Source: Wenzhouxiangella sp. AB-CW3
GTDB lineage: Bacteria > Pseudomonadota > Gammaproteobacteria > Xanthomonadales > Wenzhouxiangellaceae
Assembly: GCF_014725735.1 (NCBI RefSeq)
Contig: NZ_CP061368.1
Coordinates: forward strand, 207,001-271,000
Direction of reading: 5' to 3'
DNA: 64,000 nucleotides
In this document: positions 12,599 through 34,756 of the stretch, in pieces
Layout of the letters: each line of letters opens with the position of its first letter
Position numbering within the stretch: the first letter of the stretch is position 1
The notes under the pieces: model-generated
Seen by the model: the letters and a program-made list of their open reading frames with translations, nothing else
Database searches by the model: none
What the model was told of the DNA's origin: nothing
Made by a program: the position numbers and the translations under genes

Positions 12599-12662
12599 CG
12601 TCTACCTCCTGTGCCTGTCCTCATCATACCCGCTCCGAGCCATCCAAGAATACAATGGGGCG

Positions 12663-14680: not shown

Positions 14681-14685
14681 ATCTC

Positions 14686-18057: not shown

Positions 18058-18062
18058 ACGGG

Positions 18063-18602
18063 TTACAGGTTACGGTTTCCGGGTTCCGGTTTCCGGGGTT
18101 GTAGGTCGGGGTTACATCCCCGACGGACAACGTTGAATCCGCCCGCACCGGATCGTTCGTGTGTCGGAATGCAGGGTTCAGGGTTCAGGGACCAAGGGTT
18201 GATCACTTCGATGACGCAATTGGAGAAATCGCGTTCGTTGCGGGTGACTACGCCGGCATCCCGCGAACAGGCAATGGCCGCGGTCTGGGCATCGAACTGG
18301 GCGATTGGGCGACCGGACAGGCGCCGGCTGGCCACGATATCGGCGTAGGCGCGGGCGGCGTCGCGGTCGAACGGCAGAACGCGTCGGGCAAAGTCCTCGG
18401 CCATCATGCGGTCGAAGGCATCGATCAAGCGCTTGCGGCGCGTTCCCGCCGACAATAGCGCCAGGCCATAACGCAGTTCGGCCTCGGTCACCGTGGTCGT
18501 GAACAAACTGCCGCCGGGTTGCTCGCCCACCCAGGCCACAACCGACCGATCAGGTGCCGGACGCATCAGCTCGGAAATGACGTTGGTGTCGAGAACCAGC
18601 AT
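18063..18602 (-). CDS. PIN-domain toxin (FitB/VapC type) with a repeat-encoded C-terminal tail
   Basis: A PIN-domain ribonuclease toxin. The acidic residues of the active site are present: D5 (VLDTN), E40/E42 (TEAELRYG), D104 (QFDAQTAAIA) and D125 (RNERDF). FitB/VapC proteins of this group end near residue 137, at VINPW here. This frame instead continues for 42 more residues through GGGTTCAGGG-like and REP-like DNA, so its natural stop seems to have been lost or the locus was inserted against the repeat. It presumably cleaves RNA when freed from the antitoxin encoded 14 bp upstream. The pair lies antisense between jetC and jetD. Confidence 0.8.
   Translation of the reverse strand: MLVLDTNVISELMRPAPDRSVVAWVGEQPGGSLFTTTVTEAELRYGLALLSAGTRRKRLIDAFDRMMAEDFARRVLPFDRDAARAYADIVASRRLSGRPIAQFDAQTAAIACSRDAGVVTRNERDFSNCVIEVINPWSLNPEPCIPTHERSGAGGFNVVRRGCNPDLQPRKPEPGNRNL
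18105..18124. repeat. REP-like palindromic repeat
   Basis: A perfect inverted repeat, GTCGGGG-ttacat-CCCCGAC, is flanked by the wording GTAGG...GGACAA. This is typical of dispersed intergenic 'gtcggggttacatccccgac' elements in gammaproteobacteria. Two further repeat types adjoin it: GGTTTCCGGGTTCC-like at 18061-18098 and CAGGGTT direct repeats at 18172-18190. All of them lie inside the C-terminal extension of the toxin frame. Copy number elsewhere in the genome cannot be seen here. Confidence 0.6.
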
Positions 18603-18616
18603 CCCGAACCGACCTG

Positions 18617-18859
18617 CTAGAACTCGGGAGGTTCGCGAGTCGACTCGCGTTCAGGCAGGTCAAGCTCCACGCCACCGAGTGGCGCGAATCGCGCCTGGAT
18701 GCGCTTGGCCAGGTTGTCCGGCTCGCCGGCCTCCATGGCTAGCGTAGTGCGCAGAACTTCACGCACCTCGTCTTCCATCGAACGGCCGTGACGGGCCGCT
18801 CGCTGGCGCAGACGCTCTTTCAGGTCGTCATCAAGCCGCCGAATGGTAATGCTGCCCAT
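18617..18859 (-). CDS. FitA-like ribbon-helix-helix antitoxin
   Basis: An 80-residue antitoxin. The N-terminal half (GSITIRRLDDDLKERLRQRA, then HGRSMEDEVREVLRTTL) is an Arc/MetJ ribbon-helix-helix DNA-binding domain of the FitA type. The acidic C-terminal part, LGGVELDLPERESTREPPEF, would wrap the toxin. ATG 18857-18859 is chosen because the RHH domain starts right there and GGAAAG precedes it; an upstream in-frame start would run into the operator palindrome. It is transcribed with the PIN toxin 14 bp downstream and should repress its own operon through the 19-bp palindrome. Confidence 0.82.
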   Translation of the reverse strand: MGSITIRRLDDDLKERLRQRAARHGRSMEDEVREVLRTTLAMEAGEPDNLAKRIQARFAPLGGVELDLPERESTREPPEF

Positions 18860-18877
18860 GCTTTCCAAACCTAGAAC

Positions 18878-18896
18878 GTGCAATCATTGATTGCAC
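18878..18896. promoter_or_regulatory. 19-bp perfect palindrome, likely antitoxin operator
   Basis: GTGCAATCA-T-TGATTGCAC is a perfect inverted repeat with 9-bp arms, 18 bp upstream of the antitoxin start. The position and the symmetry fit an autoregulatory operator for the ribbon-helix-helix antitoxin. The palindrome is also about 95 bp upstream of jetD on the other strand, so binding there could also affect jetD transcription. Confidence 0.65.
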
Positions 18897-18991
18897 TACT
18901 GTATCACTGCCGGCACATAGACCGCAACGAACGCGGGGCGAATCAGGCATCCTGTAACCTTTCTGGCAACGAATCGAGACTGGCTCATCGA

Positions 18992-20191
18992 ATGAATGAC
19001 TGCCCATGGACGCGGCCAAAGGATCTCCTCGCCCAGCTGCGCAGGCAGTGGGACTCGGGTCGCCTGCTGGCCGAGCGGCTGGCGGGACAGGAGCCGTTGT
19101 TTCCGCTGAAGCTGCGAGTGAAGAAGGCCACCTCGCGCGATCTCACCGAGCGCTTCGATGCGGTGCGCGACTGGGTTGGGGAATTGATCGAACACTCGCG
19201 CGACAGGCGCGGGCACGGCTATGCCATCGAGTGGCGCACGGTCAACCATCGCACCCGGGGTCGCAACGAACTGCCGAAAGCCGTCATCGTGCCCAGTGCC
19301 GACGATGCGTTGCGGCTGATCGGCAAGACCGGCCACGCGCGGCAGTTCGATCGACTGGCCGCCGAGTTGCTGGCCGAATTTCCAACCCTTGACGACTGGC
19401 TGGCGCGCCGGCCGCTGGAGGCACTCAAGCGTGCCGAGGATTGGCCGCGCCTGCTGGCCATCCTGCGCTACTTCCGCAACCATCCCCGCCCCGGCGTTTA
19501 CCTGCGCCAGCTCGATATTCCCGGCGTGGATACCAAGTTCATTCATGCCCGACGCAGACTGGTCGGGGAATTGCTCGACGCGGTCCTGCCTTTCGAGGCG
19601 GTGGACCCATCGGCCACTGGCGTGCGCGGTTTCAATCGTCGCTATGGTCTGGCCAGCCGTCCGGTGCTGGTGCGCTTTCGCATTCTTGATCCGGAGCTGA
19701 GGCTGCGGGGGCTGAGCGATCTATCCGTCCCGGCCGAGGAATTCGCCCGCCTGAACCTGCCGGTCGAGACGGTCTTCATCACCGAAAACGAGATCAACGG
19801 CCTGGCCTTTCCCGACCATCGGCGCGCCATTGTCGTGTTCGGCCTGGGTTATGGACTGGAACGCCTGGCCGGCATCGACTGGCTGGCCCGTGCGGATTGC
19901 TGGTACTGGGGCGATATCGACACCCACGGCTTTGCCATTCTCAATCGTCTGCGCCATCACCTGCCCAAGGCACGGTCGTTCCTGATGGACCGGGCCACAC
20001 TCGATGCCCATCGCGAACTGTGGGGCAAGGAACCCGTTGACCGGCGCTTTCTTGGCCAACTGTCGCGGCTCGATCAACACGAGCAGGCGCTCTATCAAGT
20101 CCTGCGCGACGATGTCCTCTCCCCCCGGCTACGCCTGGAACAGGAGCACATCCGCTTTGCCTGGCTGGAGCGCTTTCTGGCACGCCTGTAA
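18992..20191 (+). CDS. jetD: Wadjet JetD (DUF3322/DUF2220, topoisomerase VI-like nuclease)
   Basis: A 399-residue protein with the DUF3322 N-terminal region (KDLLAQLRRQWDSGRLLAERL, then the basic WRTVNHRTRGRNELP) and the DUF2220 C-terminal Toprim domain. The Toprim acid Glu265 is in VFITENEING, and the metal-binding D308-x-D310 is in YWGDIDTHGF. These are the residues expected for the DNA-cleaving subunit that cuts circular DNA held by JetABC. The open frame begins further upstream inside the toxin-antitoxin operator, but the conserved protein starts at ATG 18992. It is separated from jetC by about 930 bp carrying the toxin-antitoxin pair, so it may have its own promoter. Confidence 0.88.
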   Translation: MNDCPWTRPKDLLAQLRRQWDSGRLLAERLAGQEPLFPLKLRVKKATSRDLTERFDAVRDWVGELIEHSRDRRGHGYAIEWRTVNHRTRGRNELPKAVIVPSADDALRLIGKTGHARQFDRLAAELLAEFPTLDDWLARRPLEALKRAEDWPRLLAILRYFRNHPRPGVYLRQLDIPGVDTKFIHARRRLVGELLDAVLPFEAVDPSATGVRGFNRRYGLASRPVLVRFRILDPELRLRGLSDLSVPAEEFARLNLPVETVFITENEINGLAFPDHRRAIVVFGLGYGLERLAGIDWLARADCWYWGDIDTHGFAILNRLRHHLPKARSFLMDRATLDAHRELWGKEPVDRRFLGQLSRLDQHEQALYQVLRDDVLSPRLRLEQEHIRFAWLERFLARL

Positions 20192-22478: not shown

Positions 22479-24104
22479 TCAGGCCGGCCGACCGTTGCCT
22501 CGAGTCAGGTACTCACCCACACGCAATGCGTTGGCAACAATGGTCAGCGTGGGCGGGCTCCCGCCCGAGGTCGGCATGAAACTGCCGTCGACCACATGGA
22601 GGTTGTCCATGGAATGGACGCGACACCAGGGGTCGAGCACGCTGGTTTCCGGGTTGCTGCCAAACCGGCATGTCCCGTGGACCAGATAGGATGAGGTCGC
22701 CCCTACCGCATCGTGGACAATGTCGGTGGCGCCGGCCTCGCTCAGGATCTCGCCGGCCCGCTCCGACAGGATCTCGCCGGTGCGCTGGCGTTGCGGGCAA
22801 TGGCCCAGCCTGATGTGTGCGGCCGGCAGTCCGAATGCATCCTCGCGATTTTCGTCCAGGCTCATCCAGGTCTCCGAGCTGGGCAGAAAGTCGTGGAAGA
22901 CCTCGTACTCGATCCGATCGCACTGTCCCAGTTCCTCGGCCAGCGCATCCAGCAGCGGTTTTCCCCACAGAATGCGGTCGTTGCGCCGGAGCACTTGCAG
23001 TGATCGCCGGAATGGCAGCCGGGCCAGCATGTCGAAGCGCAGCATGCCACCCTTGAGCAGTTCTCCACTGGCGCCATCTCCCAGGTAATAGTCGGCGACA
23101 GAAACATTCAGCATCGGATTCCAGTCCGGTTGCCGGTCGATACGCGCGCTGCCGAAAGTGGTGCCGTGAAACTGCAGGTGTCGGCCGACCAGCCCCTGTT
23201 CATTGCCCAGCCCGTCGGGGTGTCGTCCGCTGCGGCTGAGCAGCAACAGCCTGGCCGACTCGACTGCCGAGCAACTGACAATGAACAGCCGTCCGCGGGC
23301 CCGGTGCCTGGTGCCCCGCGCCCGGTCCAGGTACACCACGCCCTCCACCCGGTCCCGCGCCCCGGTCTCGAGCTCAGTGGCGATGGTGCCGGTTCGAAGT
23401 TCGAGCCTGCCGGTGGCCAGGGCGCGACGAACAAAGCTTTCCTGGCTGCTGCCCTTGGCCCCGACGGCGCAGCCGAATTCGGCACAGGCATCGCATTTCA
23501 CACAGGCAGGTCGGCCCTGGTAGGGCACCGAGTTGATCGAGCGTGGTGTGGCAAAAGGCGTCAAACCCAGTCGGGTACTGGCCTGGCGCAATTGGTCTGC
23601 CATGCGATGTCCGGCCACCGGCGGCATGGGGTGCGGGCCTGATCTGGGGACGAAGCAGGGATTGCCGTCGCCGCTGACGCCGATCTCCCTTTCGGCCAGG
23701 TCGTAGTAGGGCGCCAGGCTGTCATAGTCGTAGGCCCAGTCGGCCAGGTCACCGGTTTCGCCGTGCTCGGCGGCCATGCGAAAGTCTTGCGGGTGGAAGC
23801 GGTAGAGAAATCCGCCCATGTGCACCGTGCCGCCGCCGACGCAACTTGCCGTCCAGCCCAGCGTGGAAGGAATGGTGGGTGACTGGCTGCGGCTCCCGCT
23901 CACCCAGTGCAACTCGCCTGAATCGGGCAGCAGAGCTCCCTCGCGTTGAAACCTGATCTCGTCAGGCTGGTACTGTGAGCGATCGTGGTCCTGGCCGCGC
24001 TCCAGCATCAGCACCTGCCAGCCGGCCCGGCATAGCCACCATGCCAGGGCGCCGCCGCCGGCACCGGCGCCGATGATGACGGCGTCGTACTCCCGATCAG
24101 CCAT
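22479..24104 (-). CDS. GMC-family FAD oxidoreductase in the lanthipeptide export operon
   Basis: A 541-residue flavoprotein. It has an N-terminal FAD-binding Rossmann motif YDAVIIGAGAGGGALAWWL and the ribose-binding LMLERG. A cysteine-rich loop CVKCDACAEFGC lies near residue 220, and the GMC_oxred_C region contains HGTCRFG with the catalytic His. At the second active-site position the usual N-P-T is S-P-P-T-L-T, so the canonical Asn/His is replaced. The start at ATG 24102-24104 overlaps the small-subunit gene by 8 bp, an arrangement like gluconate/sorbitol dehydrogenases where the two form one enzyme. No Tat signal is visible, so it probably acts in the cytoplasm. The substrate could be an alcohol or sugar, or the lanthipeptide itself; the latter is inference from operon position. 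Confidence 0.82.
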   Translation of the reverse strand: MADREYDAVIIGAGAGGGALAWWLCRAGWQVLMLERGQDHDRSQYQPDEIRFQREGALLPDSGELHWVSGSRSQSPTIPSTLGWTASCVGGGTVHMGGFLYRFHPQDFRMAAEHGETGDLADWAYDYDSLAPYYDLAEREIGVSGDGNPCFVPRSGPHPMPPVAGHRMADQLRQASTRLGLTPFATPRSINSVPYQGRPACVKCDACAEFGCAVGAKGSSQESFVRRALATGRLELRTGTIATELETGARDRVEGVVYLDRARGTRHRARGRLFIVSCSAVESARLLLLSRSGRHPDGLGNEQGLVGRHLQFHGTTFGSARIDRQPDWNPMLNVSVADYYLGDGASGELLKGGMLRFDMLARLPFRRSLQVLRRNDRILWGKPLLDALAEELGQCDRIEYEVFHDFLPSSETWMSLDENREDAFGLPAAHIRLGHCPQRQRTGEILSERAGEILSEAGATDIVHDAVGATSSYLVHGTCRFGSNPETSVLDPWCRVHSMDNLHVVDGSFMPTSGGSPPTLTIVANALRVGEYLTRGNGRPA

Positions 24105-24522
24105 TAAAGCGTGGCATCTCCGGTCCGCGCATGCCCACCTGGCGCCAGCCGGCCTCATTGCGGTTGCCGCCACGGGCGGGGTCGCACAGATAGCCTTCCA
24201 GGCAGAACTCGATGAATGAAACCCAGCAGGCCCTGAAGCGCGCATCTTTGCTTTCGGCCAGGGTTTCGAGAATCGCCTCCCGGTCATGTCGGGCGAGCTT
24301 GGGGAACGTGGCGGTGTCGGGCAGGCCGGCCCGCGTCATCGCTGCCTGGAGCTCCGTCACCATGGCGCGCAGTTGTCCGCCACGGGGTGATTCAACCAGT
24401 CCGTGCAGATACTGCGCCACGCCGGCTGTATCCGGGCCGTGTCCCGCGGTATCCGGAATCACGTGCTCGGCCAGACATTCCAGCCACCTGCGGAACTGAG
24501 CCTCGGTGTCAGGTGCCGACAT
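24097..24522 (-). CDS. Gluconate 2-dehydrogenase subunit 3-like protein
   Basis: A 141-residue protein of the Gluconate_2-dh3 family. The characteristic HVIPDTAGHGPDTAGVAQYL near residue 20 is followed by a helical body and FIEFCLEGYLCDPARGGNRNEAGWRQVGMRGP at the C-terminus. Family members pair with a GMC-type catalytic subunit and usually carry a twin-arginine signal that exports the complex. This one starts directly with the mature part, so no export signal is seen. The gene overlaps the ABC transporter stop upstream by 14 bp and the GMC gene downstream by 8 bp, so all three are co-translated. Confidence 0.8.
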   Translation of the reverse strand: MSAPDTEAQFRRWLECLAEHVIPDTAGHGPDTAGVAQYLHGLVESPRGGQLRAMVTELQAAMTRAGLPDTATFPKLARHDREAILETLAESKDARFRACWVSFIEFCLEGYLCDPARGGNRNEAGWRQVGMRGPEMPRFNG

Positions 24523-26740
24523 GTTCGATGCCCGTCGCGAGCGAACGATTCTGCTGCGCCTCGTACAACCGGTAGTAGTGGCCCTGCCTGGCGATCAGTT
24601 CATCGTGGGTGCCGCGCTCGACGATCTCTCCCTCGTCGAACACCAGTATCTGATCGGCCGAGCGGATGGTGCTCAGGCGATGGGCAATCACGACTCGGGT
24701 GGCTTCGACCTGTTCGACCTGCTGATGAACGTGAGCCTCGGTCAGACTGTCCAGCGCGCTGGTCGCCTCGTCGAGAATCAGCAGCTTGGGTTTCTGAAAC
24801 AGCGCGCGCGCCAGTGCAATGCGCTGCTTCTGTCCCCCCGACAGTCCACTGGCACCGTCCCCGATCTGGGTGTAGTAGCCCAGGGGCAAAGCTTCGATCT
24901 CTTCGTGGATACACGCCATGCGTGCCGCCTGACGCACCTCCTCCAGGCTCGCGGCACGCTGACCATAGCTGATGTTTTCGCGCACACTGCCCTGCAACAG
25001 AAACACGTCCTGGGTGACGACGCCAAGCTGTTGGCGCAGCGCTTCGAGATCAACCTGTTTCAGGTCGGCGCCGTCGATGCGAATGCATCCTTCCCAGGCC
25101 AGGTACAGGCCGGCAAGCAGGCGGGCAAGGGTCGACTTGCCCGACCCGGACTGTCCGACCACGCCGATGAACTCTCCGGGCCTGGCTTCGAAACTCACTC
25201 CCTTGAGCACGGGTGCCTGACCACTCTCGTAGGAGAAGGTCACGTTGTCGACCTCGATGTGCCCCTCGATCTGCGGTGGAACAGCCCATGCCCTCCCATC
25301 GTCTTCGCGACGCGCCCCGAACACGTCATTGATGCGATCGAGGTGGCTGTACATCTTCTGCAGTTCGTACCCGGTATCGAGCAGCTGGTTGAGGGGTTGC
25401 AGGACATTGGTGGCCACCAGGCTCAGGGCCAGCAGCAGGCCCAGGCTCAGGCTTCCGGCCAGCACCATGTAGGCCCCGACCGCGAGGAAGAGCAATGGCC
25501 CGAAGTTGACGATGCCGTCGCGTATGGCTGACGTCCAGGCCTCAAGGCGCCCCCGTTTCAGGACGACGTTCAACTCGTCGACATACGCATCGGACCAGCG
25601 TTCCGCCGCAACATGTTCGCGACCGGATGATTTCAACGGTTCGATGCCCGTGAGGATTTGTATCTGCAAGCCCTGGGCACGACTCTGGGCAATCAACTGG
25701 TCCAGGTGCAACTGGCGGTAGTAGCGCCGTGTTACCAGAAAGACCAGCACCTGGATGCTGGCAAACGCGAGCACGATCATCGCCAGGGGGATGGAACCAA
25801 GTACCAGGACCAGCAATGCAAAGATCAGCATGCTGCCGTCCAGAACCGCCGATAGCGAACTGTTGGTCAACGCATCCCGGACAGACCGGCTGCTGTTCAT
25901 CTTGATGACCAGGTCACCCGCCTTTCGTCGATCGAAGAACTCGAATGGCAGACTGATCAAGTGATCAAGAAAGTTGAATGTCAGCACCGAATCCAGCCGT
26001 GTGCGCAGGTATAGCAGCGAGTAACTCCTGAGCAGGCTGCAGGCAAAACGAAAGGCAAAGGCCAGACCAACGCCAATCACCACCACCATCAGCAGGTCGT
26101 GATCCTGTCGCGGAATGATGCGATCGACCAGCACGCCGGTCAGCAGCGGTAGTCCGAGGGCAAACAACTGCAACGCGAAGGACACGACGATGACCCGGTG
26201 CAAGACTGCCGGGTCATTGAGCAGAAGCTTGAAAAAAGGTTTCAGCTTCGATTCACCCTTCTCGCCAGGGGCAAGAGACGCCTTGGCCTCGAAGGTCAGC
26301 GCCACGCCGGTCAGGGCGCGATCCACATCAGCCAGCGGAACACGGACCTGCCCCCGAGCCGGATCCATGATCCAGATCGCGTCCTTGCCGATCCGGTCGA
26401 AGACGACATAGTGGTGAAACTTCCAGTGGAGAATCGAGCCTCTTGGCACGTAGCGCAAGTCGTCTACCTGGCTGACCCGTACTCCACGGCCAAGCAGGCC
26501 GTAGCGGCGTGCCACATTCAGCAGCACGTGGGCATTGGTGCCCCGTCGCATGGTGCCGCAGGCATCAACCACTTCGTCGAGCGTGGTGTGCCTGCCATGC
26601 ATGCCCAGTACCATGGCCAGGCATGCCGGACCGCAGTCGGAATGCTGATGCTGGGCGACAAACGGGATGCGCTTTCGACGCCCGAGGCTGACCCTTTCCA
26701 GCGACGTGAAGCGACGGGCGAGATCAAAAATCGATTTCAT
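24509..26740 (-). CDS. C39-peptidase ABC exporter (PCAT / LanT type)
   Basis: A 743-residue exporter of double-glycine-leader peptides. The N-terminal C39 peptidase has Gln30 and Cys36 (HSDCGPAC), His110 (HHYVVFD) and Asp126 (IMDPARG), so the protease is intact. Residues 170-470 form the six-helix ABC membrane domain. The nucleotide-binding domain has Walker A GQSGSGKST, Q-loop VVTQDVFLL, signature GLSGGQKQR, Walker B LLILDEATSALD and the switch His in VIAHRLSTI. It should cut the leader of the precursor encoded at 29066 after Gly-Gly and export the core, together with the two HlyD-like adaptors encoded just upstream. ATG 26738-26740 lies 13 bp after the adaptor stop. Confidence 0.93.
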   Translation of the reverse strand: MKSIFDLARRFTSLERVSLGRRKRIPFVAQHQHSDCGPACLAMVLGMHGRHTTLDEVVDACGTMRRGTNAHVLLNVARRYGLLGRGVRVSQVDDLRYVPRGSILHWKFHHYVVFDRIGKDAIWIMDPARGQVRVPLADVDRALTGVALTFEAKASLAPGEKGESKLKPFFKLLLNDPAVLHRVIVVSFALQLFALGLPLLTGVLVDRIIPRQDHDLLMVVVIGVGLAFAFRFACSLLRSYSLLYLRTRLDSVLTFNFLDHLISLPFEFFDRRKAGDLVIKMNSSRSVRDALTNSSLSAVLDGSMLIFALLVLVLGSIPLAMIVLAFASIQVLVFLVTRRYYRQLHLDQLIAQSRAQGLQIQILTGIEPLKSSGREHVAAERWSDAYVDELNVVLKRGRLEAWTSAIRDGIVNFGPLLFLAVGAYMVLAGSLSLGLLLALSLVATNVLQPLNQLLDTGYELQKMYSHLDRINDVFGARREDDGRAWAVPPQIEGHIEVDNVTFSYESGQAPVLKGVSFEARPGEFIGVVGQSGSGKSTLARLLAGLYLAWEGCIRIDGADLKQVDLEALRQQLGVVTQDVFLLQGSVRENISYGQRAASLEEVRQAARMACIHEEIEALPLGYYTQIGDGASGLSGGQKQRIALARALFQKPKLLILDEATSALDSLTEAHVHQQVEQVEATRVVIAHRLSTIRSADQILVFDEGEIVERGTHDELIARQGHYYRLYEAQQNRSLATGIEHVGT

Positions 26741-26753
26741 CGGGTCAATCCAC

Positions 26754-27668
26754 CTATAGTCCCGGAATCAGGGCGATCGCGACGGGTTCCGAACCAATCT
26801 GCACCTGTCCGGATACCAGCATGCCGTCGTGCAGCGGATACTGCCGACCCTGGTACTCGAACACCGGATCGAGAATGCGTGCGCGGGCATGGACCAGCGT
26901 GCCGGTCAACTGCAGGCTGTCACCCAGGCCGTACCCGATCTGTCCCCGGGCTTCCTCGACACCGATCAGTTCACTGTCCACTTGTTCCAGCTCAAGCTCC
27001 AGGCGAGATTGCGGATAGCCCAGAAGCTCCAGCAGCACCTGCTGTCCCGGTTCGATCTGCGGACGCAGTTGCCCCGGCAGAAACAGGCTGACCACGTTGG
27101 TGCCGCGTGCATCACCCTGTGTCAGCAATACCTGGCCGGCGACCACCGGCTGCCCCGGACGTACGCGCACATCGCTGACCGTGCCGGCACTCTTGGCCGT
27201 GACCTTGAGTTCGTCAAGCTGCGATTGCGCACTTCGGTAGTCTGCCCGGGCCTGTGCCACCTGCTCGGCCTGTTCGTGATTGAGCAGCCAGCGCTGAACA
27301 GCGTCCCGGTAGTTGTCCCGGGCCAGGATGTACTGGTCCAGCTCACGCTGTGAATGGAACTCGACGAGCACATCGCCTTCCTCGACCCAGTCGCCGCTGG
27401 CCACCCTGACTTCGTCGACCGTGCCGGAAATGCGGGCCACGATCTGGGAGTCACCACCCAGTCTGACCACGCCCTGCCCATCGGCATAGGTGCTGATTCG
27501 AGCCACCAGCGCGTAGACCACTGCAATGACCAGCACCAGTACCAGTACCCGATAGGTCCAGATGGTCCACCCCGGCCCGTTTCTCAGTATCGAGTCCAGT
27601 TCAACGTCGCCCTCATCCCGTGCCTTGAGGGCGGCAGGACGAAACAGGCTGTCGGAAGATTCACTCAT
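26754..27668 (-). CDS. HlyD-like membrane fusion/adaptor protein (second)
   Basis: A 304-residue periplasmic adaptor. After about 35 cytoplasmic residues there is one transmembrane helix (VLVLVLVIAVVYALVARI), then a barrel-sandwich/lipoyl half-motif (VVRLGGDSQIVARISGTVDEVRVASGDWVEEGDVLVEF). A helical hairpin (about 110-165), the matching second lipoyl half (VTAKSAGTVSDVRVRPGQPVVAGQVLL) and a beta-barrel follow. It would link the PCAT exporter to an outer-membrane channel such as TolC, which is not encoded here. The ATG overlaps the preceding adaptor gene by 4 bp. Confidence 0.85.
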   Translation of the reverse strand: MSESSDSLFRPAALKARDEGDVELDSILRNGPGWTIWTYRVLVLVLVIAVVYALVARISTYADGQGVVRLGGDSQIVARISGTVDEVRVASGDWVEEGDVLVEFHSQRELDQYILARDNYRDAVQRWLLNHEQAEQVAQARADYRSAQSQLDELKVTAKSAGTVSDVRVRPGQPVVAGQVLLTQGDARGTNVVSLFLPGQLRPQIEPGQQVLLELLGYPQSRLELELEQVDSELIGVEEARGQIGYGLGDSLQLTGTLVHARARILDPVFEYQGRQYPLHDGMLVSGQVQIGSEPVAIALIPGL

Positions 27669-28528
27669 CGGGAAGCTACCGGGTCGCTCGCTGCCGAATT
27701 GGTGGCAGGCAACGGCTGCACCGAAACACCACGGCCCAGCAGCCCGATTTCCTCAGACTCCAGGCTGGCTTCGGCGACAACCAGTCCGGTAACCACGTCA
27801 CTACCTGGCGCAACGGCAACGACCGTGGCCGTGGCCGAAGCGTCAATCAACATTTTATCTCCAACCTGAACGTTGTACCGGTCTGATTCCGGAAAGGCAA
27901 ATCGCACCAGCAGGGAATCCGGCTTTACGATCTCGAACATCACATCACCGGTGCGAATCCTATCCCCCTTGCGTACCCTGCGTTGCTGTACCAGTCCTCC
28001 GATCGGAGCAACCACGGAGGTGCGCTGCTGCTTGAGTAGCAGTAGTTCATGATCCGCCTTGACCGCTTCCAGTTGGGCTTTTGCTGATGCCACCCCTGCC
28101 TTTGCAGCTTCGTACAGCTGCTCTGCCATACCCAGTTCGTCAAGGGAAACACTGGCCCCGGCCATGTAACGTCGGTCGAGCTCGCTCTTGCGCAGGGAGC
28201 GCATCGAGTTCTCTTCCGTGACCTGGGCTTTCGCCATGCGCAGCTCGGCTTCCGAACGTGCAATCTCGGATTTCAGTTCTTCAAGATTGATGACAGCAAG
28301 TTGTTGTCCGGGAATCACGGGTTGACCGATCAGGACTTCAACCTCTTCAACCGTTCCATCCAGTTCGCTGCTTACCTTGACGGCTTCGGCAGGGTATACG
28401 ACGCCTACCCAGCCTTCGTCCGACGCAACGGCAAGTCCGACAGTCAGAACAATGGTCAGAGCGCAACCAGTGAAAAGGCGGCCGGTGGTGCGCACGGCCG
28501 GATTCGACAACATCAATGCCAGGAGCAT
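27665..28528 (-). CDS. HlyD-like membrane fusion/adaptor protein (first)
   Basis: A 287-residue adaptor with a signal-anchor-like hydrophobic N-terminus (FTGCALTIVLTVGLAVA). A split lipoyl domain (VVYPAEAVKVSSELDGTVEEVEVLIGQPVIPGQQLAVIN, then VVAPIGGLVQQRRVRKGDRIRTGDVMFEIV) flanks a coiled-coil hairpin at about 75-160. It opens the export operon. I use ATG 28526-28528 because GAGGG lies seven bases upstream; the frame also opens at 28549. The gene starts about 45 bp downstream of a good sigma70-like promoter. Having two different adaptors for one exporter is unusual: either they form a heteromeric periplasmic ring or one serves another pump. Confidence 0.82.
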   Translation of the reverse strand: MLLALMLSNPAVRTTGRLFTGCALTIVLTVGLAVASDEGWVGVVYPAEAVKVSSELDGTVEEVEVLIGQPVIPGQQLAVINLEELKSEIARSEAELRMAKAQVTEENSMRSLRKSELDRRYMAGASVSLDELGMAEQLYEAAKAGVASAKAQLEAVKADHELLLLKQQRTSVVAPIGGLVQQRRVRKGDRIRTGDVMFEIVKPDSLLVRFAFPESDRYNVQVGDKMLIDASATATVVAVAPGSDVVTGLVVAEASLESEEIGLLGRGVSVQPLPATNSAASDPVASR

Positions 28529-28578
28529 GCCATTCCCTCGCCAGTACAAACTCGAATGATTAAGCCCCCGTTATCTGC

Positions 28579-28608
28579 ATTCTAATCAGCCCCTGAAGAG
28601 GCAGTCAA
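28579..28608 (-). promoter_or_regulatory. Sigma70-like promoter of the export/GMC operon
   Basis: On the minus strand TTGACT (28603-28608) and TAGAAT (28579-28584) are separated by 18 bp. Both hexamers match the consensus in five of six positions. The predicted start is near 28572, about 45 nt before the first adaptor ATG. Confidence 0.6.
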
Positions 28609-28622
28609 CCATCATCAACTCA

Positions 28623-28669
28623 GCATCTTGATGCAGATCGCATGCATTAAGGTACGGTTCTTGATGAAG
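28623..28669. promoter_or_regulatory. Paired 11-bp repeats, candidate operator of the lanthipeptide cluster
   Basis: TCTTGATGCAG (28626-28636) and TCTTGATGAAG (28659-28669) match in 10 of 11 positions and start exactly 33 bp apart, three helical turns. Each is locally palindromic: GCATC-TT-GATGC in the first, TTC...GAA in the second. They sit between the two divergent promoters, where a shared regulator would bind. No regulator gene is present in the cluster itself. Confidence 0.4.
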
Positions 28670-28704
28670 CGTTCCTTGCGTGAAATCGATAATTTTCCCA
28701 GCGC

Positions 28705-28732
28705 TTGACATGCTGGATTATCCGCCTATACC
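28705..28732 (+). promoter_or_regulatory. Sigma70-like promoter toward the lanthipeptide precursor
   Basis: A consensus TTGACA (28705-28710) is followed after 16 bp by TATACC (28727-28732). The transcript would start near 28739 and carry an unusually long leader of about 330 nt before the precursor ATG at 29066. Confidence 0.55.
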
Positions 28733-28776
28733 ATCGGTGGCAGGCTAAAAAACAAAAGGCGCTGAAGCCGAACAGT

Positions 28777-28837
28777 CTGGTTGGATAGCTCAGTTGATAA
28801 CGTCAGATCAAATCAACTGATAAAGCCAACTTACCAG
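28777..28837 (+). ncRNA. Structured element in the precursor mRNA leader
   Basis: A perfect 9-bp stem TCAGTTGAT/ATCAACTGA (28790-28798 and 28812-28820) encloses a 13-nt loop. It is extended by an outer helix TTGG/CCAA (28781-28784 and 28826-28829) and CTGG/CCAG, across a symmetric ATAGC/TAAAG internal loop. It lies between the plus-strand promoter and the precursor gene and is AT-richer than its surroundings. It may be a cis-acting RNA or a regulator palindrome; no known riboswitch class is recognised. Confidence 0.4.
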
Positions 28838-28991
28838 CTGAAGTTTTCAGTAAAAATAATGGCGGTCGGGGGGTCGATCCATTGGATTCATGAAGCCATT
28901 TCGTTCTGGGCTGGCATGTTCCTTTTGTTTGCAAGGCGATTCGCACCTCCATGGTGTGGATGTTGGCGATGCGTCATGTCGCCAACCGGGA

Positions 28992-29041
28992 CAGAAAACG
29001 TGCTTTCAGCGTTTTCTGAGTTTGACCCGAGAGGGTTTTTT
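28992..29041 (+). terminator. Terminator-like attenuator just before the precursor gene
   Basis: A 9-bp perfect stem CAGAAAACG/CGTTTTCTG (28992-29000 and 29010-29018) is followed by a second small hairpin ACCC-gaga-GGGT (29025-29036) that runs straight into a T6 tract. The T-run ends only about 25 bp before the precursor ATG, leaving no room for a promoter in between. Transcription of the precursor therefore has to pass this signal. It could be an attenuator, or the end of a separate small RNA. Confidence 0.5.
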
Positions 29042-29065
29042 CTGTAGACAAAGAGGAACGCAACA

Positions 29066-29254
29066 ATGAAAAACGAACTCATTGAAATGATGCGCAAGAA
29101 CGTTCAGGCCGACCAGTCGGCTGACCAGGTCAACGTGATTGACGACGAAGCACTCAAGAGCATCAATGGCGGTTGCGGCGGCATGGGAGGATGTCAGCCC
29201 AACCCGTTCTCGGCCACCCTGTGCCCGGACGGAACCTGGTACCAGTGCCCGTAA
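29066..29254 (+). CDS. Class II lanthipeptide precursor peptide
   Basis: A 62-residue peptide. The leader (MKNELIEMMRKNVQADQSAD onward) is acidic-amphipathic and ends DDEALKSINGG, the double-glycine site cut by C39 exporters. The core from residue 37 has 26 residues with four Cys (core positions 1, 7, 17, 25), one Ser (13), two Thr (15, 21) and many Gly/Pro. A second Gly-Gly at core 5-6 offers an alternative cut that leaves 20 residues with exactly three Cys and three Ser/Thr. AGAGGA lies eight bases before the ATG. LanM downstream should dehydrate Ser/Thr and form the thioether rings. I cannot match the core to a named lantibiotic. Confidence 0.9.
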   Translation: MKNELIEMMRKNVQADQSADQVNVIDDEALKSINGGCGGMGGCQPNPFSATLCPDGTWYQCP

Positions 29255-29273
29255 GCGACAGGCTTTAGGTACA

Positions 29274-29301
29274 CCGCATGGTGGCTACGGCCACCATGCG
29301 G
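29274..29301 (+). terminator. Strong hairpin between precursor and lanM
   Basis: A perfect 12-bp stem, CCGCATGGTGGC/GCCACCATGCGG, with a 4-nt loop lies 20 bp after the precursor stop and 100 bp before lanM. There is no T-run. Such hairpins in lanthipeptide operons commonly act as partial terminators or stabilisers, so the small precursor is made in excess over the synthetase. Confidence 0.6.
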
Positions 29302-29400
29302 CTCTCTCAACCAGTGCCAGGTGTCATGACCATACACTTCGATGGGTGATCGTTCTGTAGCCCCTGCCTGAATATCCTTGCTCCAAACTTGGTGAACCTG

Positions 29401-32229
29401 ATGCAGCCGGCCCATGACTCCAGTTCAACTGACTGGCTGGTCCCCATCATGGCCCGGCAGTTTCCCGATCTGGCGCGTCTGTCCTTTCAGCAATCAGTAG
29501 AACATCATTTGCATGATGTTCGAACAGTTCTGCTGAAACAATCAACCGACCCGGGCCGGGTTGATCCCGGTTCAGTACTTGCAAGTGTTCAGCTACTGCT
29601 GAACGACGAACTCGTTAATCGATTGACACCGGTCGTGTTCCGGATGTGTGAGTCGATCATCGCGGTTGGCCCAGTCGAAATCGGCGACTCCGAACATGAC
29701 TTGCGGCAGTGGATTGAACGGCATGGCCTCGATCTCATGTCGGGCGCTTTCCCGCTGCTTCCCGACACCGTCGGTGGCATTCTTTCGCGGCAAGCCAGGG
29801 CAATCGCCGAGGCCCTGCAACGCTACTTTGAAAATCATGCGCTGATCGAGCAGGGTTTGCTGCATGGAAGCAGTGGTTCGCTCAGGCGAATCACGCCCCT
29901 GGGTGAAGAAACTCATAACGAAGGACAACGCCCACTGCGTTTCGAATTTTCGTCGGGCCACACGGTGGTATACAAGCCACGCAGCCTGGGTATGGAAGCC
30001 AGCTTCCAGTGGTGCCTTGAGAAAGTACTGAAGGCTCGCGGCAAGTCATCGCGGCGGCAGCCAGCCATCGTCGACCTCGGCACGCATGGCTGGATGGAAT
30101 GGATCGAAGCCGTTCCGGCGCGCACAAGGGAACAACTTGAAGCTTATCACTACCATTTTGGTCTGCAGCTCGCGGTTGCCGATTTGCTGGGAATGGGCGA
30201 CATGCATTCGGAGAACGTGATTGCTGTCGCCGATGAACCGGTGATGGTCGATTGCGAAGTGTGCGTGGCAATCGACTTGCCCTGGTATGACCCACCCCAG
30301 ATCAGTCACTTCGATACCGTGCTGGGGCTGGGCCTGCTGCCATGGGAGGTGGTGGGTAGTGGGGTGCGGACCAGAAACCGGGCAGGGCTGGCCACCTCGG
30401 CAAAGGCTTTGGTGCACGAGTGGCAGGTCAGCGTTGACGATGATGCGCGACTGAGTCTTTCCAGGGTGGAGAAATCGATTGACGCCACGCATAGTCCTTT
30501 CCTGGGGAACAGCCTCAAGCCGGACTGGCCATCCCTGGGTCGACGGCTGGCCGATGGTTTTCGAGACGGCGCCGACAGCATTCGAGAACTGCTTGACCAA
30601 GCCGATTTCTCCGACACTTTAACCCGGCGTCTGGATGGGCAGATCGTGCGCATCCTGCCACGCACGACGTGGCATTACGCTCGCCTTCAGTCCGCGCTGC
30701 ACGGCGCGGAGGGTCTGGCCGACAAGCGCGCCAGAGGCCAGCTACTGGCGAAGCTCGAACTGGCCGATGCCCGCCACCCCGGCATCAGCCAGTTGGCTTC
30801 CCATGAGCAATCCAGCCTGCTTGCGGGCGACGTCCCCGCATTCCACGGCCGGCTGGGCTCGCGCGAACTCATCTGGCAGGGGCAGTGCGTGGCTGCAGAC
30901 TTTTTGCCCCCTTCGGCCACTCAGGCCCTCGGTCGGCGGTGGCGGCGGCTTGGTGCTGCAGATACCGAGCGACAAGTCCGATTGATCCAGCAGACATTCG
31001 GTCTCTACGAACTGCCCACGCTGCAGTGCAAAGATTCTGGCAGCAACGTGCCCGCCGACCCCCGAAGCCTGGCCGCCGAGGTGGGCGAGTGGCTGCTGTC
31101 CCGTCAGACCAGCGACTACTGGTTCGAAGCCAACCTGGCCGGTGATTCGGCTCGCGTGGCCGGCATCGACACCAGCCTGGAAACCGGCGTGCTGGGGATA
31201 TCGGTCTTCTTTGCCGGTCTCGCCGCGGCCGGTGAAGCGCAATTCGAGGATCATGCCCGGCGCCTGGCCAACGTTGCCCTGGACAGGAGCGAGGCCGCAT
31301 TGCTGGACACGGGCCCGGGTGGCCATGCCGGGCTGGGCGGGCTGATGTTCAGTCTGTGCAGCCTGTCCAGTCTGCTGGACGATGCGGCCTGGATCGAACG
31401 GGCAGAGCGGCTCCTGCCCCTGCTTGAACAGACGGTTGCCCGGGATGAACGGATGGATCTCATGGCCGGTTGCGCCGGCGCCCTGGCGGCGGCCACCGAA
31501 CTGGCAAGGTGCACCGGAAGCCCGGACGCCATGCGTTGCGCGCAAGTCGCCCGCGAAAGAATCCTGGCCCATCATGTCCCGGCCAATCCGGGGTGTGCCT
31601 GGCTGTCCTGTACCACGGCCGATGGTCGGCCCTTGCCTGGCATGGCGCATGGCAGCAGTGGTATCCGCATGGCCTTGATGCGCCTGCAATCGCTGGATCC
31701 GATTGCCGAGGTCGACGACAGGGTCGCCGGGGCTGTCGAGTTCGAGGCGGCCGGATTCGACTTCGAGCTGCGGCGTTTCGATGCTCGACACCCTTCTGCT
31801 CATGATCGACAAACGACCATCAAGGGCGAGGCATGGTGCAACGGAACGCTGGGTATTGCCCTGGCCGATGTCGATATCGGTCAGCAACAAGCCCGGCATG
31901 GTAGTGCGCTCATGCACGCCGCCCTGGGCGGTGTACACGGTCGCCTTCAAACAGACAACCACAGCCTGTGTCACGGCGATCTCGGCAATTTGCTCATGCT
32001 TTCCCGGCTCAAGCCGGCCTATCCCGATGCCCTGGGCAGTCTTGAACTCGAAGTGATCAGAGACCGCTTGCTCTCGGAGCTGTCGAGTGGGCCGATACAT
32101 TGCGGCGCACGACCCTTCAGGACGCTTCACGGGATGATGGCCGGACTGGCCGGAATTGGATACGGTCTGCTACTGCTGGACCATTCGGACTGGCCCGATC
32201 CACTGCGCCTGCGCTTGGGACCTCTCTAG
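29401..32229 (+). CDS. lanM: LanM, bifunctional class II lanthipeptide synthetase
   Basis: A 942-residue LanM. The N-terminal DUF4135 dehydratase has a lipid-kinase-like active site: Lys192 in VVYKPRSLG, His269/Asn272 in GDMHSENVI, and Asp284/Glu286 in VMVDCE. The C-terminal LanC-like cyclase (from about residue 540) has the double GxxG-type repeats (MAHGSSGIRMAL) and zinc ligands Cys813 (EAWCNGT), Cys857 and His858 (LCHGDLGN). All key residues are present, so dehydration and cyclisation should both work. Start choice among TTG 29389, GTG 29392 and ATG 29401 is not decided by a Shine-Dalgarno; ATG is used. It follows the precursor gene after 146 bp and a strong hairpin. Confidence 0.93.
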   Translation: MQPAHDSSSTDWLVPIMARQFPDLARLSFQQSVEHHLHDVRTVLLKQSTDPGRVDPGSVLASVQLLLNDELVNRLTPVVFRMCESIIAVGPVEIGDSEHDLRQWIERHGLDLMSGAFPLLPDTVGGILSRQARAIAEALQRYFENHALIEQGLLHGSSGSLRRITPLGEETHNEGQRPLRFEFSSGHTVVYKPRSLGMEASFQWCLEKVLKARGKSSRRQPAIVDLGTHGWMEWIEAVPARTREQLEAYHYHFGLQLAVADLLGMGDMHSENVIAVADEPVMVDCEVCVAIDLPWYDPPQISHFDTVLGLGLLPWEVVGSGVRTRNRAGLATSAKALVHEWQVSVDDDARLSLSRVEKSIDATHSPFLGNSLKPDWPSLGRRLADGFRDGADSIRELLDQADFSDTLTRRLDGQIVRILPRTTWHYARLQSALHGAEGLADKRARGQLLAKLELADARHPGISQLASHEQSSLLAGDVPAFHGRLGSRELIWQGQCVAADFLPPSATQALGRRWRRLGAADTERQVRLIQQTFGLYELPTLQCKDSGSNVPADPRSLAAEVGEWLLSRQTSDYWFEANLAGDSARVAGIDTSLETGVLGISVFFAGLAAAGEAQFEDHARRLANVALDRSEAALLDTGPGGHAGLGGLMFSLCSLSSLLDDAAWIERAERLLPLLEQTVARDERMDLMAGCAGALAAATELARCTGSPDAMRCAQVARERILAHHVPANPGCAWLSCTTADGRPLPGMAHGSSGIRMALMRLQSLDPIAEVDDRVAGAVEFEAAGFDFELRRFDARHPSAHDRQTTIKGEAWCNGTLGIALADVDIGQQQARHGSALMHAALGGVHGRLQTDNHSLCHGDLGNLLMLSRLKPAYPDALGSLELEVIRDRLLSELSSGPIHCGARPFRTLHGMMAGLAGIGYGLLLLDHSDWPDPLRLRLGPL

Positions 32230-32323: not shown

Positions 32324-34756
32324 ATGCATTATCTGCCCACGACTCTGCTGCGGTTTTTCGTACTGGCACTCATCTCCATCTGCCTGGCAGCCGCCGCGGT
32401 TGCCGCCCCCATCATCCAGCCCGGCAAGCCCGGGGAAGACAGCCGCGAGATTTCGGCCGAAGATGCCATCAAGCTCGCCGCCGTGCGCTACTCGGCCGCC
32501 GATGTGCAGTTCATGACCGACATGATTCCGCACCATCAGCAGGCGCTGGACATGACCGTGCTGGTCGCCGATCGCACGGCCCGCAACGGCATGATCGAGC
32601 TGGCCCGTCGCATCGAGTCTTCGCAGAAGGACGAGATTGCCTACATGATCGAATGGCTGAGCGCGCGCGGCGAGCCGGTGCCCGACCGTGACTGGCGCGC
32701 CCATGGACACCATCATCATCACCACGGCATGGAGGGCATGGCGACCGAGGAGCAGATGGAAGAACTCGAAGCGGCCAGCGGTGATGACTTCGACACCCTG
32801 TTCCTCGAGCTGATGATCGAGCACCACCGCGGTGCGCTGGTGATGGTCGAGGACCTGCTCGACGCGCGCGGCGCGGCCCAGGATCCCGAAGTGTTCGAGT
32901 TTGCCCGCGACGTCAAGAACGACCAGGATGCCGAGATCGACCGCATGACTGTCATGCTGGCCAGCTATTCGCCCGATCCGCGCACCGGCCTGGCCGCCGG
33001 CTTTCGCGATGCCGGCGAGGCGATCCACAACATGGAGTTGCTGGTCTCGTTGCCCAAGCCCGACGGCTTCTTCGATCCGGACAACCCGGCCGCCCTGCCG
33101 ACCAGCCGCCTGCGTGAGTTGCAGGCAGAAGACAATGGTGAGGAACCTGAAGAGGACGAAGCCCGCGATCGCCCCTCGCTACTGGATTTTGCCAACACCG
33201 ACATGGCTTTCGCCGACGATTTGCTGGCCGTTGGCAATTACCACGGCTTCAAGCTCTACAACATCGCTGAGAACCGAACCCCGGAATTGGTCAGCGGCGT
33301 GGTCTGCCCCGGTGGGCAGGGCGATGTGTCCATCGTCGGCGATCTGCTGATCATGTCGGTCGAGCAGTTCCGTGGCCGCACCGACTGCGGGCTGCTTGGC
33401 GTGGCCGGCAAGGTCAGCGACGATCGCTTCCGCGGCCTGCGCATCTTCGATATTTCCGACCCGGCGCGCCCGAAGCAGGTCGGCCAGGTGCAGACCTGTC
33501 GCGGCTCGCACACCCACACCGTGGTTGCCGGTCCGGGCGAGGATGGCAAGCTCATTGTCTACAACTCCGGTACCGCCCCGGTGCGTGAAGAGGAGGAGAT
33601 GGACGGCTGCATCGACGAGGACCCCTGGCGCGACGATCAGACCGCGCTTTTTCGCATCGACGTGATCGAGATTCCTGTTGATCGGCCCGAAGACTCGCGC
33701 ATCGTGCACTCACCGGCGGTCTTTGCCGATCCCGATACCGGCATCCTGGCCGGCCTGTGGGAGCGCGGCGATCACGGCCCGGACACCCAGACCTCGGCCG
33801 AGACCAACCATTGCCATGACATCACGGTGTTTCCCGACAAGCAGATTGCCGCCGGCGCCTGCTCGGGCAACGGCATCCTGTTCGACATCTCCGACCCGGT
33901 CAATCCCGAGCGCATCCATGAAGTGGTCGACCCGAGCTTTGCCTACTGGCACTCGGCCACCTTCAGCAATGATGGCCGCAAGGTGATCTTCACCGACGAG
34001 TGGGGCGGCGGGACCCGGCCACGCTGCCGCGCCTCCGACCCGCTGACCTGGGGTGCGAACGCCATCTACGAGATCGTCGACAACGAACTGGTGTTCCGCT
34101 CCTACTACAAGATGCCGGCCCCGCAGACCGAGCAGGAAAACTGCGTGGCCCATAACGGCTCGCTGCTGCCCGTGCCCGGCCGCGACATCATGGTGCAGGC
34201 CTGGTACCAGGGCGGCATCTCGGTGTTCGATTTCACCGATGCGTCCAGCCCGAAGGAAATAGCCTTCTTCGACCGTGGTCCGATCGACGAGGAAGCACTG
34301 GTCACCGGCGGCTACTGGTCGGCCTACTGGTACCGCGGCCGCGTCTACGGCACCGAGATCGTGCGTGGCCTGGATGTACTCGAACTGCTGCCCAGCGACT
34401 ACCTCAGCGCCAACGAACTGGCCGCGGCACGGCTGGTCGACCAGGGTGATGCCTTCAATCCCCAGCAGCAGGACCAGGTCAGCTGGCCGGCCGAGCCGGT
34501 GGTGGCACGTGCCTGGCTCGACCAACTCGAGCGCGGCAAGCGTCTCGATGAGACGGAACTGGCCGCGATTCGCGAACTGCTCCGAACGGCCGACCACGTG
34601 CTGGCCAACGGTGAACCGGCCGGTGAGCTGCCAGAGCAACTGCGCGCTTGGTCGGCCAGAGTGGCCGAACAGGCCCGCGACCATGAGGGTCAGACCCGCC
34701 ACCGCCTGGCGGGCCTGTCCGGCACGCTTGAGGGCGTGGCCGGTCGGCTGAATTGA
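32324..34756 (+). CDS. Secreted DUF305-LVIVD repeat fusion protein
   Basis: An 810-residue exported protein (signal peptide about residues 1-28). Residues 50-225 are a DUF305 domain with two ferritin-like helical hairpins, each with the metal-type motif: FMTDMIPHHQQALDM and LFLELMIEHHRGALVM. A natural His-rich loop (HGHHHHHHGMEGM) lies between them. Residues 290-690 form an LVIVD beta-propeller (LLAVGNYHGFKLYNI, FRGLRIFDISDPARP, GGISVFDFTDASSPK). A short helical C-terminal region follows. DUF305 proteins are linked to copper or other metal handling; the propeller suggests cell-surface binding. It lies 95 bp after lanM on the same strand, but nothing ties it to the lanthipeptide pathway. Confidence 0.83.
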   Translation: MHYLPTTLLRFFVLALISICLAAAAVAAPIIQPGKPGEDSREISAEDAIKLAAVRYSAADVQFMTDMIPHHQQALDMTVLVADRTARNGMIELARRIESSQKDEIAYMIEWLSARGEPVPDRDWRAHGHHHHHHGMEGMATEEQMEELEAASGDDFDTLFLELMIEHHRGALVMVEDLLDARGAAQDPEVFEFARDVKNDQDAEIDRMTVMLASYSPDPRTGLAAGFRDAGEAIHNMELLVSLPKPDGFFDPDNPAALPTSRLRELQAEDNGEEPEEDEARDRPSLLDFANTDMAFADDLLAVGNYHGFKLYNIAENRTPELVSGVVCPGGQGDVSIVGDLLIMSVEQFRGRTDCGLLGVAGKVSDDRFRGLRIFDISDPARPKQVGQVQTCRGSHTHTVVAGPGEDGKLIVYNSGTAPVREEEEMDGCIDEDPWRDDQTALFRIDVIEIPVDRPEDSRIVHSPAVFADPDTGILAGLWERGDHGPDTQTSAETNHCHDITVFPDKQIAAGACSGNGILFDISDPVNPERIHEVVDPSFAYWHSATFSNDGRKVIFTDEWGGGTRPRCRASDPLTWGANAIYEIVDNELVFRSYYKMPAPQTEQENCVAHNGSLLPVPGRDIMVQAWYQGGISVFDFTDASSPKEIAFFDRGPIDEEALVTGGYWSAYWYRGRVYGTEIVRGLDVLELLPSDYLSANELAAARLVDQGDAFNPQQQDQVSWPAEPVVARAWLDQLERGKRLDETELAAIRELLRTADHVLANGEPAGELPEQLRAWSARVAEQARDHEGQTRHRLAGLSGTLEGVAGRLN

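Follow-up and report, generated by a model that had tools for sequence, protein, structure and literature searches.

The stretch of Wenzhouxiangella sp. AB-CW3 DNA analysed here (the window) is 64,000 nucleotides long, and positions are numbered from its first letter. Between 22479 and 32229 it contains two divergent transcription units that face away from a gap of approximately 0.5 kb. The leftward unit, on the minus strand, encodes in order two HlyD-like adaptors, a (27665..28549; 294 aa when read from the TTG at 28549) and b (26754..27668; 304 aa), a C39 peptidase-ABC exporter (24509..26740; 743 aa), a small protein resembling gluconate dehydrogenase subunit 3 (G2DH3; 24097..24522; 141 aa) and an FAD-type GMC oxidoreductase (22479..24104; 541 aa). 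The last two gene joints of this unit overlap, by 14 nt between the exporter and G2DH3 and by 8 nt between G2DH3 and the GMC oxidoreductase. The rightward unit, on the plus strand, consists of a 62-aa LanA precursor (29066..29254) followed by LanM (29389..32229; 946 aa from a TTG, with an alternative in-frame ATG at 29401). A sequence-only reading had named all of these parts and their divergent arrangement, and each was recovered where it had been placed. Both the family searches and the layout support its reading of the region as a complete class II lanthipeptide cluster of a gammaproteobacterium that includes two adaptors, a C39 exporter and the GMC/G2DH3 pair.

The gap between the two units includes a stretch (28785-28880) that by eye resembles a decayed tRNA (GGTTGGATAGCTCAGTTGAT ... 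GGGGGGTCGATCC) and that is not called by ARAGORN; it might be the mark of an old insertion site. Immediately to the left of the cluster lies a complete type I Wadjet defence set on the plus strand (12456-20191), formed by JetA (12456-14099; PADLOC best E 1.8e-213), JetB (14096-14680; 1.1e-87), JetC (14620-18057; 0) and JetD (18878-20191; 2.1e-147). A PIN-domain ORF recognised by family search (18063-18602, minus strand) is positioned antisense between JetC and JetD. Downstream of LanM and on the same strand, 32324-34756 encodes an 810-aa protein with an N-terminal DUF305 domain.

The precursor is formed from the leader MKNELIEMMRKNVQADQSADQVNVIDDEALKSINGG and the core CGGMGGCQPNPFSATLCPDGTWYQCP, and has the features expected of class II, being small, with a double-glycine leader (Gly35-Gly36) and a core containing Ser, Thr and Cys. 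Gly36-Cys37-Gly38 at the end of the leader reproduces a Gly(-1)-Cys(1)-Gly(2) pattern. A second GGC within the core (Gly41-Gly42-Cys43), which could be a second thiazole site, is common to the same-genus MAG described below but not to all relatives. LanM passes TIGR03897 (398.5 bits, cut-off 304) and consists of an N-terminal dehydratase domain (PF13575) and a C-terminal cyclase domain (PF05147). Alignment to LicM2 (6st5) places DMHSEN at 271, WCNG at 816 and LCHG at 860, which we take to be functional dehydratase and cyclase zinc-ligand residues.

The exporter combines a C39 peptidase (PF03412) with an ABC core (PF00664, PF00005), and the catalytic Cys, His and Asp of the C39 domain are all present, as they are in six of six exporters compared, a set that excludes the exporter of the related genome G109. 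Against the NHLP bacteriocin exporter model TIGR03796 it scores 594.4 bits, under the cut-off of 853.3. Adaptor a matches HlyD_D23 (52.0 bits) and HlyD_3 (52.6 bits); an ATG near 28528 is a likelier start than the TTG at 28549 and, by eye, the protein has a signal-like N-terminus. Adaptor b matches HlyD_3 (48.9 bits) and by eye has a single N-terminal stretch resembling a membrane helix. The locus thus provides an ABC protein and two adaptors as parts of a tripartite type I system, and export of the product by a TolC-type route is plausible.

The GMC oxidoreductase (PF05199/PF00732) is the predicted thiazole-forming tailoring enzyme. The ORF listed for it spans 602 aa and probably starts too early, the likelier start being the ATG at 24104 that gives 541 aa and the short overlap with the end of G2DH3. 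FAD glucose and fructose dehydrogenases possess a cysteine motif with an iron-sulphur cluster, and the C-x2-C-x2-C-x4-C motif of the GMC protein (C201, C204, C207 and C212) suggests such a cluster here. An identity as the mycofactocin enzyme MftG was rejected, as TIGR03970 gives 71.7 bits against a cut-off of 387.45. A structure prediction from a six-row alignment reached a mean pLDDT of 55.9 and was left unused. Searching plasmids with the GMC protein returned 16 records, all below 60% identity (31.6-38.0% among the 15 matches listed). The adjoining G2DH3 belongs to PF13618 (40.9 bits, cut-off 23.4), a family of small subunits of FAD dehydrogenases. By eye, its translation contains no Tat or Sec signal, and it finds no match among solved-structure sequences at E ≤ 1. 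Folding, electron transfer and substrate binding are guesses at what it may do in this cluster.

The closest solved chains to the GMC protein are FAD glucose and fructose dehydrogenases (6a2u, E 2.2e-50; 7w2j, E 3.8e-47), and PF13618 is itself named after the small subunit of such an enzyme. Both points favour the view that the two proteins are ordinary sugar or alcohol dehydrogenase subunits that are neighbours of the lanthipeptide genes by accident. The likeness consists of membership of the GMC family by sequence and of the adjoining PF13618 protein. However, the His of the NNHITG segment in 6a2u and 7w2j has no counterpart at the aligned place in the AB-CW3 protein, the identified neighbours do not include a cytochrome gene, there is no Tat-like signal, and the reading frames overlap the exporter gene. 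This view is already unlikely, and it is considered again below alongside the relatives of the GMC protein. Loss of the canonical GMC catalytic residues was also tried as a mark of the RiPP-linked proteins, and was discarded as the sister group has changed likewise.

Querying named genomes with the GMC alignment brought up nine loci. The sequence-only reading had proposed searching for the layout in related genomes, and it recurs in PLM2.Bin43, a Wenzhouxiangellaceae MAG of the same genus (locus L053, on the same contig as L034 and L052). Here the same divergent arrangement is found, with identities to AB-CW3 of 66% for the GMC protein, 73% for the ABC exporter, 63% and 60% for the adaptors and 46% for G2DH3. 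Although LanM is just 43% identical, this shared layout takes the gene arrangement beyond chance, and a chance assembly of genes is ruled out by the conservation of the layout in relatives. The core, CGMGGCQPNPFSATLCPDGTWIICQ, is nearly identical to that of AB-CW3, the two differing by five synonymous and three non-synonymous changes over 25 aligned codons, plus one codon gap. Two further members of the family contain similar clusters. In OFTM154 (L056, same contig as L032) both adaptors, the ABC exporter, G2DH3, GMC and LanM lie in one row, while one contig of G109 carries the adaptors, an ABC gene split over two frames, G2DH3, GMC and the precursors (two intact and one interrupted), with LanM at the edge of another contig.

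Outside the family, the locus of Eilatimonas milleporae (L059) encodes LanM, G2DH3 and GMC together with four precursors. Between 11795 and 14218 the precursors form two pairs that resemble each other, separated by a partial second GMC copy, a C-terminal fragment, as would result from a tandem duplication. No C39 exporter match is found in the 21.6 kb covered. That a GMC gene occurs here with no such match nearby speaks against a reading in which the flavoprotein pair serves the producer, through immunity or redox housekeeping of the exporter, and leaves the peptide untouched. The family searches recognised no dedicated immunity gene within 22479-32229 of AB-CW3, which would suit such a role, but the similar published arrangement is described as modifying the peptide (Wiederkehr et al., 2026; PMC13083261), and we give this reading almost no credence.

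Three Myxococcota clusters, Myxococcus qinghaiensis (L055), G530 (L094) and G537 (L101), contain LanM, a C39 ABC exporter and GMC, with one, two and three precursors respectively, and a G2DH3 match is absent from all three. In L055 a 70-aa ORF resembling a single helix (6024-6236, minus strand) lies between the precursor and the exporter, where other loci carry a full HlyD-like adaptor, and L101 has a short match to the same part. Finally, a MAG titled Cyanobacteria (L054) contains G2DH3 and GMC inside a lasso-peptide cluster, together with PqqD-like, transglutaminase-like and asparagine-synthase-like genes and a 60-aa candidate precursor that lacks cysteine; no LanM match occurs in the surrounding 59 kb.

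In a tree of 30 GMC proteins the nine RiPP-linked members lie on one side of a branch supported at 99/94 and found in 100% of 200 bootstrap trees, with the 21 others opposite. This tree was drawn from 45 rows by leaving out two duplicates, one short row and 12 Myxococcota rows belonging to the sister group, and the row for one of the clade members, L110, is long and unusual in its letter composition. An earlier tree of 39 rows placed eight of the nine together (100/100). All nine are beside RiPP genes, eight with lanthipeptide precursors and one in the lasso-peptide cluster, and LanM accompanies eight of them when G109, with LanM on its separate contig, is counted. By comparison, LanM matches are absent from the six sister-group loci read with flanks (L057, L058, L095, L103, L104 and L111) and from two more distant GMC loci (L060 and L061). 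A G2DH3 match is present in all eight of these loci that lack LanM and in six of the nine clade members. The occurrence of G2DH3 in each of the LanM-less loci makes it probable that GMC and G2DH3 were paired before they came into use with RiPPs, and that the Myxococcota clusters later lost the pairing. The sister-group pairs, one of which has a Tat-like signal, show that GMC and G2DH3 can stand together without LanM, as the accidental-neighbour view would have it. This is opposed by the single clade formed by the RiPP-linked proteins and by a neighbourhood conserved across genera and phyla, and we consider it very improbable that the AB-CW3 pair is an ordinary dehydrogenase.

The RiPP-linked GMC clade is thinly spread. 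In the family of AB-CW3, five of 43 genomes match at E ≤ 1e-150, four of them RiPP-linked, and in the class sample the single match in 369 genomes is the query genome itself. Two further samples gave one match each at E ≤ 1e-190 (1/297 and 1/289), in both cases the centre genome, and a third gave two of 193 at 1e-130, namely itself and an outsider. Among the Myxococcota, 107 of 195 genomes match at E ≤ 1e-120 and at least three of the 195 have a RiPP-linked GMC, loci having been taken for 30 genomes. LanM itself is not rare in the order, where 51 of 398 genomes contain one over the cut-off.

A homology search over the eight LanM-linked loci yielded 15 intact precursors, 12 of which have GG-C at the end of the leader, for example GGCCLPGQSSAICTPCPPQHCL in Myxococcus, GGCGCPPGAGSVLCTPCPPLNCGA in Eilatimonas and GGCAPTTPGVSCVPPGVFCP in G109; each of the eight loci has at least one such precursor. 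The initial searches had GGC or GAC in their pattern, and it was a pattern-free screen together with the homology search that added an interrupted L110 copy and the copies lacking GGC. Three intact non-GGC copies were found once the pattern was dropped, and the proposition that every clade precursor carries GGC was therefore rejected. These three precursors have no Cys after GG or GA, reading IGGGNSPSAESSAICTPCPPYHCV in G530 (L094, 6004-6216, minus strand) and ITGGDFCLPGQSSPQCTPCPPRHCF and ISGADTCEQFGSYYCTPCPPYHCL in G537 (L101, 5546-5758 and 6095-6310, minus strand), and each is beside a GGC sibling. They retain the CTPCPPxxC end of the Myxococcota, which recurs across phyla in two of the four precursors of Eilatimonas; its remaining two end in CSPCPPxxC. 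In the open-access literature CTPCPP is matched in a keratin context alone. The non-GGC siblings are perhaps natural non-substrates of the GMC enzyme, or partners in a multi-peptide product.

The leaders differ among the loci. With 66.7 bits in L094 and 39.1 bits in L056, precursors of two loci exceed the TIGR03898 cut-off of 23.5 and so fit the mersacidin/lichenicidin family, whereas those of L059 (17.1 bits) and one of L110 (14.2 bits) fall below the cut-off and the AB-CW3 precursor has no match to this model. For comparison, precursors were sought beside 17 other LanM loci of the order. Two strict screens found nothing, and a looser control screen, crude and adopted after the strict versions came up empty, recovered 15 candidate reading frames, two of them with GGC, from 13 of these 17 loci, which lack a RiPP-type GMC; at the edge of one of the 17, L039, lies a weak and partial match to GMC (27.5% over 138 aa). 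Applied to the eight GMC-linked loci, the looser screen returned 13 ORFs, ten with GGC, although it missed the L055 and L094 precursors and its range was widened for L056 and L110. Nine LanM loci of the order (L041-L046 and L048-L050) carry another precursor family with a leader of the [NS]PAGxL type, of which three cores (L044, L045 and L050) read CGTACTGS...CC.

The GMC chemistry to which these junctions may be compared was described in class II lanthipeptide clusters of Acidobacteriota. There, ThaO converts a Gly-Cys motif of ThaA into a thiazole with a loss of 20 Da, as established by co-expression, isotope labelling, mutants, MS/MS and NMR; the ThaA C1A exchange blocks the reaction, and two lanthionine-type rings are made by ThaM (Wiederkehr et al., 2026; PMC13083261). 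A homologue of ThaO, TheO (contig DATEIO010000468.1), acts on TheA in the absence of LanM, G-1A and G2A impairing the reaction while G-2A does not; according to the authors, no known GMC enzyme had until then been described from RiPP biosynthesis (PMC13083261).

AB-CW3 offers the elements of this system, namely LanM, a GMC oxidoreductase and Gly36-Cys37-Gly38, and from these we infer a thiazole at Gly36-Cys37. The explanation of the locus that we consider probable is a class II lanthipeptide biosynthesis and export cluster in which GMC/G2DH3 forms this thiazole and the C39 exporter acts with two adaptors and TolC. LanM would dehydrate Ser49, Thr51 and/or Thr57, and by joining them to Cys43, Cys53 and Cys61 it would form two or three (methyl)lanthionine rings. 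The GMC enzyme, helped by G2DH3, would heterocyclise and oxidise Gly36-Cys37 to the thiazole (-20 Da) in the manner of ThaO and TheO. The C39 ABC transporter, with its two adaptors and a TolC encoded elsewhere, would then remove the leader and export the peptide, which would probably act against Gram-positive prey. The product predicted by analogy thus combines a Gly36-Cys37 thiazole with two or three (methyl)lanthionines. The absence of a G2DH3 match from the three Myxococcota clusters, and the occurrence of GGC in two of the 15 control candidates, count against the thiazole. If it is right, the non-GGC siblings of L094 and L101 should escape the GMC enzyme, and with three of 15 precursors lacking the junction Cys and the lasso-linked candidate free of Cys, the substrates of the clade need not all be Gly-Cys.

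A conflict with leader removal follows from the proposed ring. C39 peptidases canonically cut after a double glycine, with further positions at P7 and P4, and the AB-CW3 leader fits this site with Leu30 at P7, Ile33 at P4 and Gly35-Gly36 at P2-P1. A thiazole formed from Gly-Cys leaves no amide between the two residues to cut, so that with Gly36-Cys37 converted the bond for the canonical cut would be gone despite the intact C39 residues. The leader might then be cut at Gly35|Gly36 instead or be removed by a different protease, or only some of the peptide might be converted to thiazole. The calculated monoisotopic masses are 2672.016 or 2690.027 for Gly36-Pro62 with one thiazole and three or two dehydrations, and 2635.021 or 2653.032 for Cys37-Pro62 lacking the thiazole. 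The peptide studied in PMC13083261 was released with trypsin and AspN.

The same leader fit and intact C39 residues would also suit a class II lanthipeptide of the ordinary kind, cleaved at GG|C, with GMC/G2DH3 altering something else on the peptide or at its N-terminus, for example a thiol or alcohol. In line with this, the antiSMASH analysis reported in PMC7691419 predicted dehydrations and crosslinks only, and three sibling precursors (in G530 and G537) as well as the lasso-linked candidate have no junction Cys. On the other hand, all eight LanM-linked loci keep a Gly(-1)-Cys(1) precursor despite their differing leaders, as the GMC reaction described in PMC13083261 needs, and cleavage at GG|C of a peptide without the thiazole appears rather unlikely. 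Building on the thiazole, we tentatively suggest, as a possibility that still falls well short of an even chance, that GMC and G2DH3 constitute a RiPP tailoring module that crosses classes. It would act on class II lanthipeptides of Gammaproteobacteria and Alphaproteobacteria, on those of Myxococcota in a form lacking G2DH3, and in a lasso cluster with a Cys-free candidate precursor. In the lanthipeptides it would heterocyclise the same Gly-Cys bond that forms the C39 site, so that either ring formation and leader removal compete or the cut shifts one residue upstream (G|G-thiazole).

With these results a lantibiotic locus that was published but partly annotated, in a cultivated bacterium that preys on Gram-positive cells, becomes a thiazole-lanthipeptide candidate open to testing. 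If the assignment holds, GMC thiazole chemistry extends to Proteobacteria and Myxococcota, and G2DH3 becomes a candidate partner protein for the GMC enzyme. They also raise the testable question of how the leader can be cleaved off once its double-glycine site has become part of a ring. If the clade serves lasso peptides as well, the use of GMC enzymes would extend beyond a single RiPP class.

The AB-CW3 locus is the one reported by Sorokin et al. (2020; PMC7691419), with the same core, lanM and hlyBD. The strain is a gammaproteobacterium from soda lakes, isolated on Staphylococcus cells, that feeds on Gram-positive cells. The paper reports the lanA core, identical to CGGMGGCQPNPFSATLCPDGTWYQCP, with lanM and hlyBD and a tolC elsewhere in the genome; lanM expression was four times higher with Staphylococcus cells and LanA was not detected, and Melittangium boletus is named as the source of the closest lanM (PMC7691419). 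Its statement that no other Wenzhouxiangella encodes a similar gene contrasts with the whole layout found here in the same-genus MAG PLM2.Bin43. The sequence-only reading did not recognise the combination of genes as described, and this novelty is just partial, since the lanthipeptide half is in print as a prediction (PMC7691419) and GMC thiazole chemistry in class II clusters is likewise in print (PMC13083261). 'Gluconate' has no match in the main text of either paper (nor has GMC in that of PMC7691419), the phrase 'gluconate 2-dehydrogenase subunit 3' is absent among the open-access literature matches listed, and sections 17, 19 and 20 of PMC7691419 contain no second adaptor. The present analysis adds the G2DH3 partner in six of nine clade members, the lasso-linked relative, the cleavage conflict and the siblings that lack GGC. 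It also extends the clade to Proteobacteria and Myxococcota, although some of these relatives may already be listed in the supplements of the 2026 paper. Compared with the ThaO and TheO clusters of Acidobacteriota, by their published description rather than by sequence, the Wenzhouxiangella cluster has in common a class II LanM, a GMC oxidoreductase and a precursor with Cys after Gly, and it differs from the tha-type system as described in the second GGC of its core (PMC13083261).
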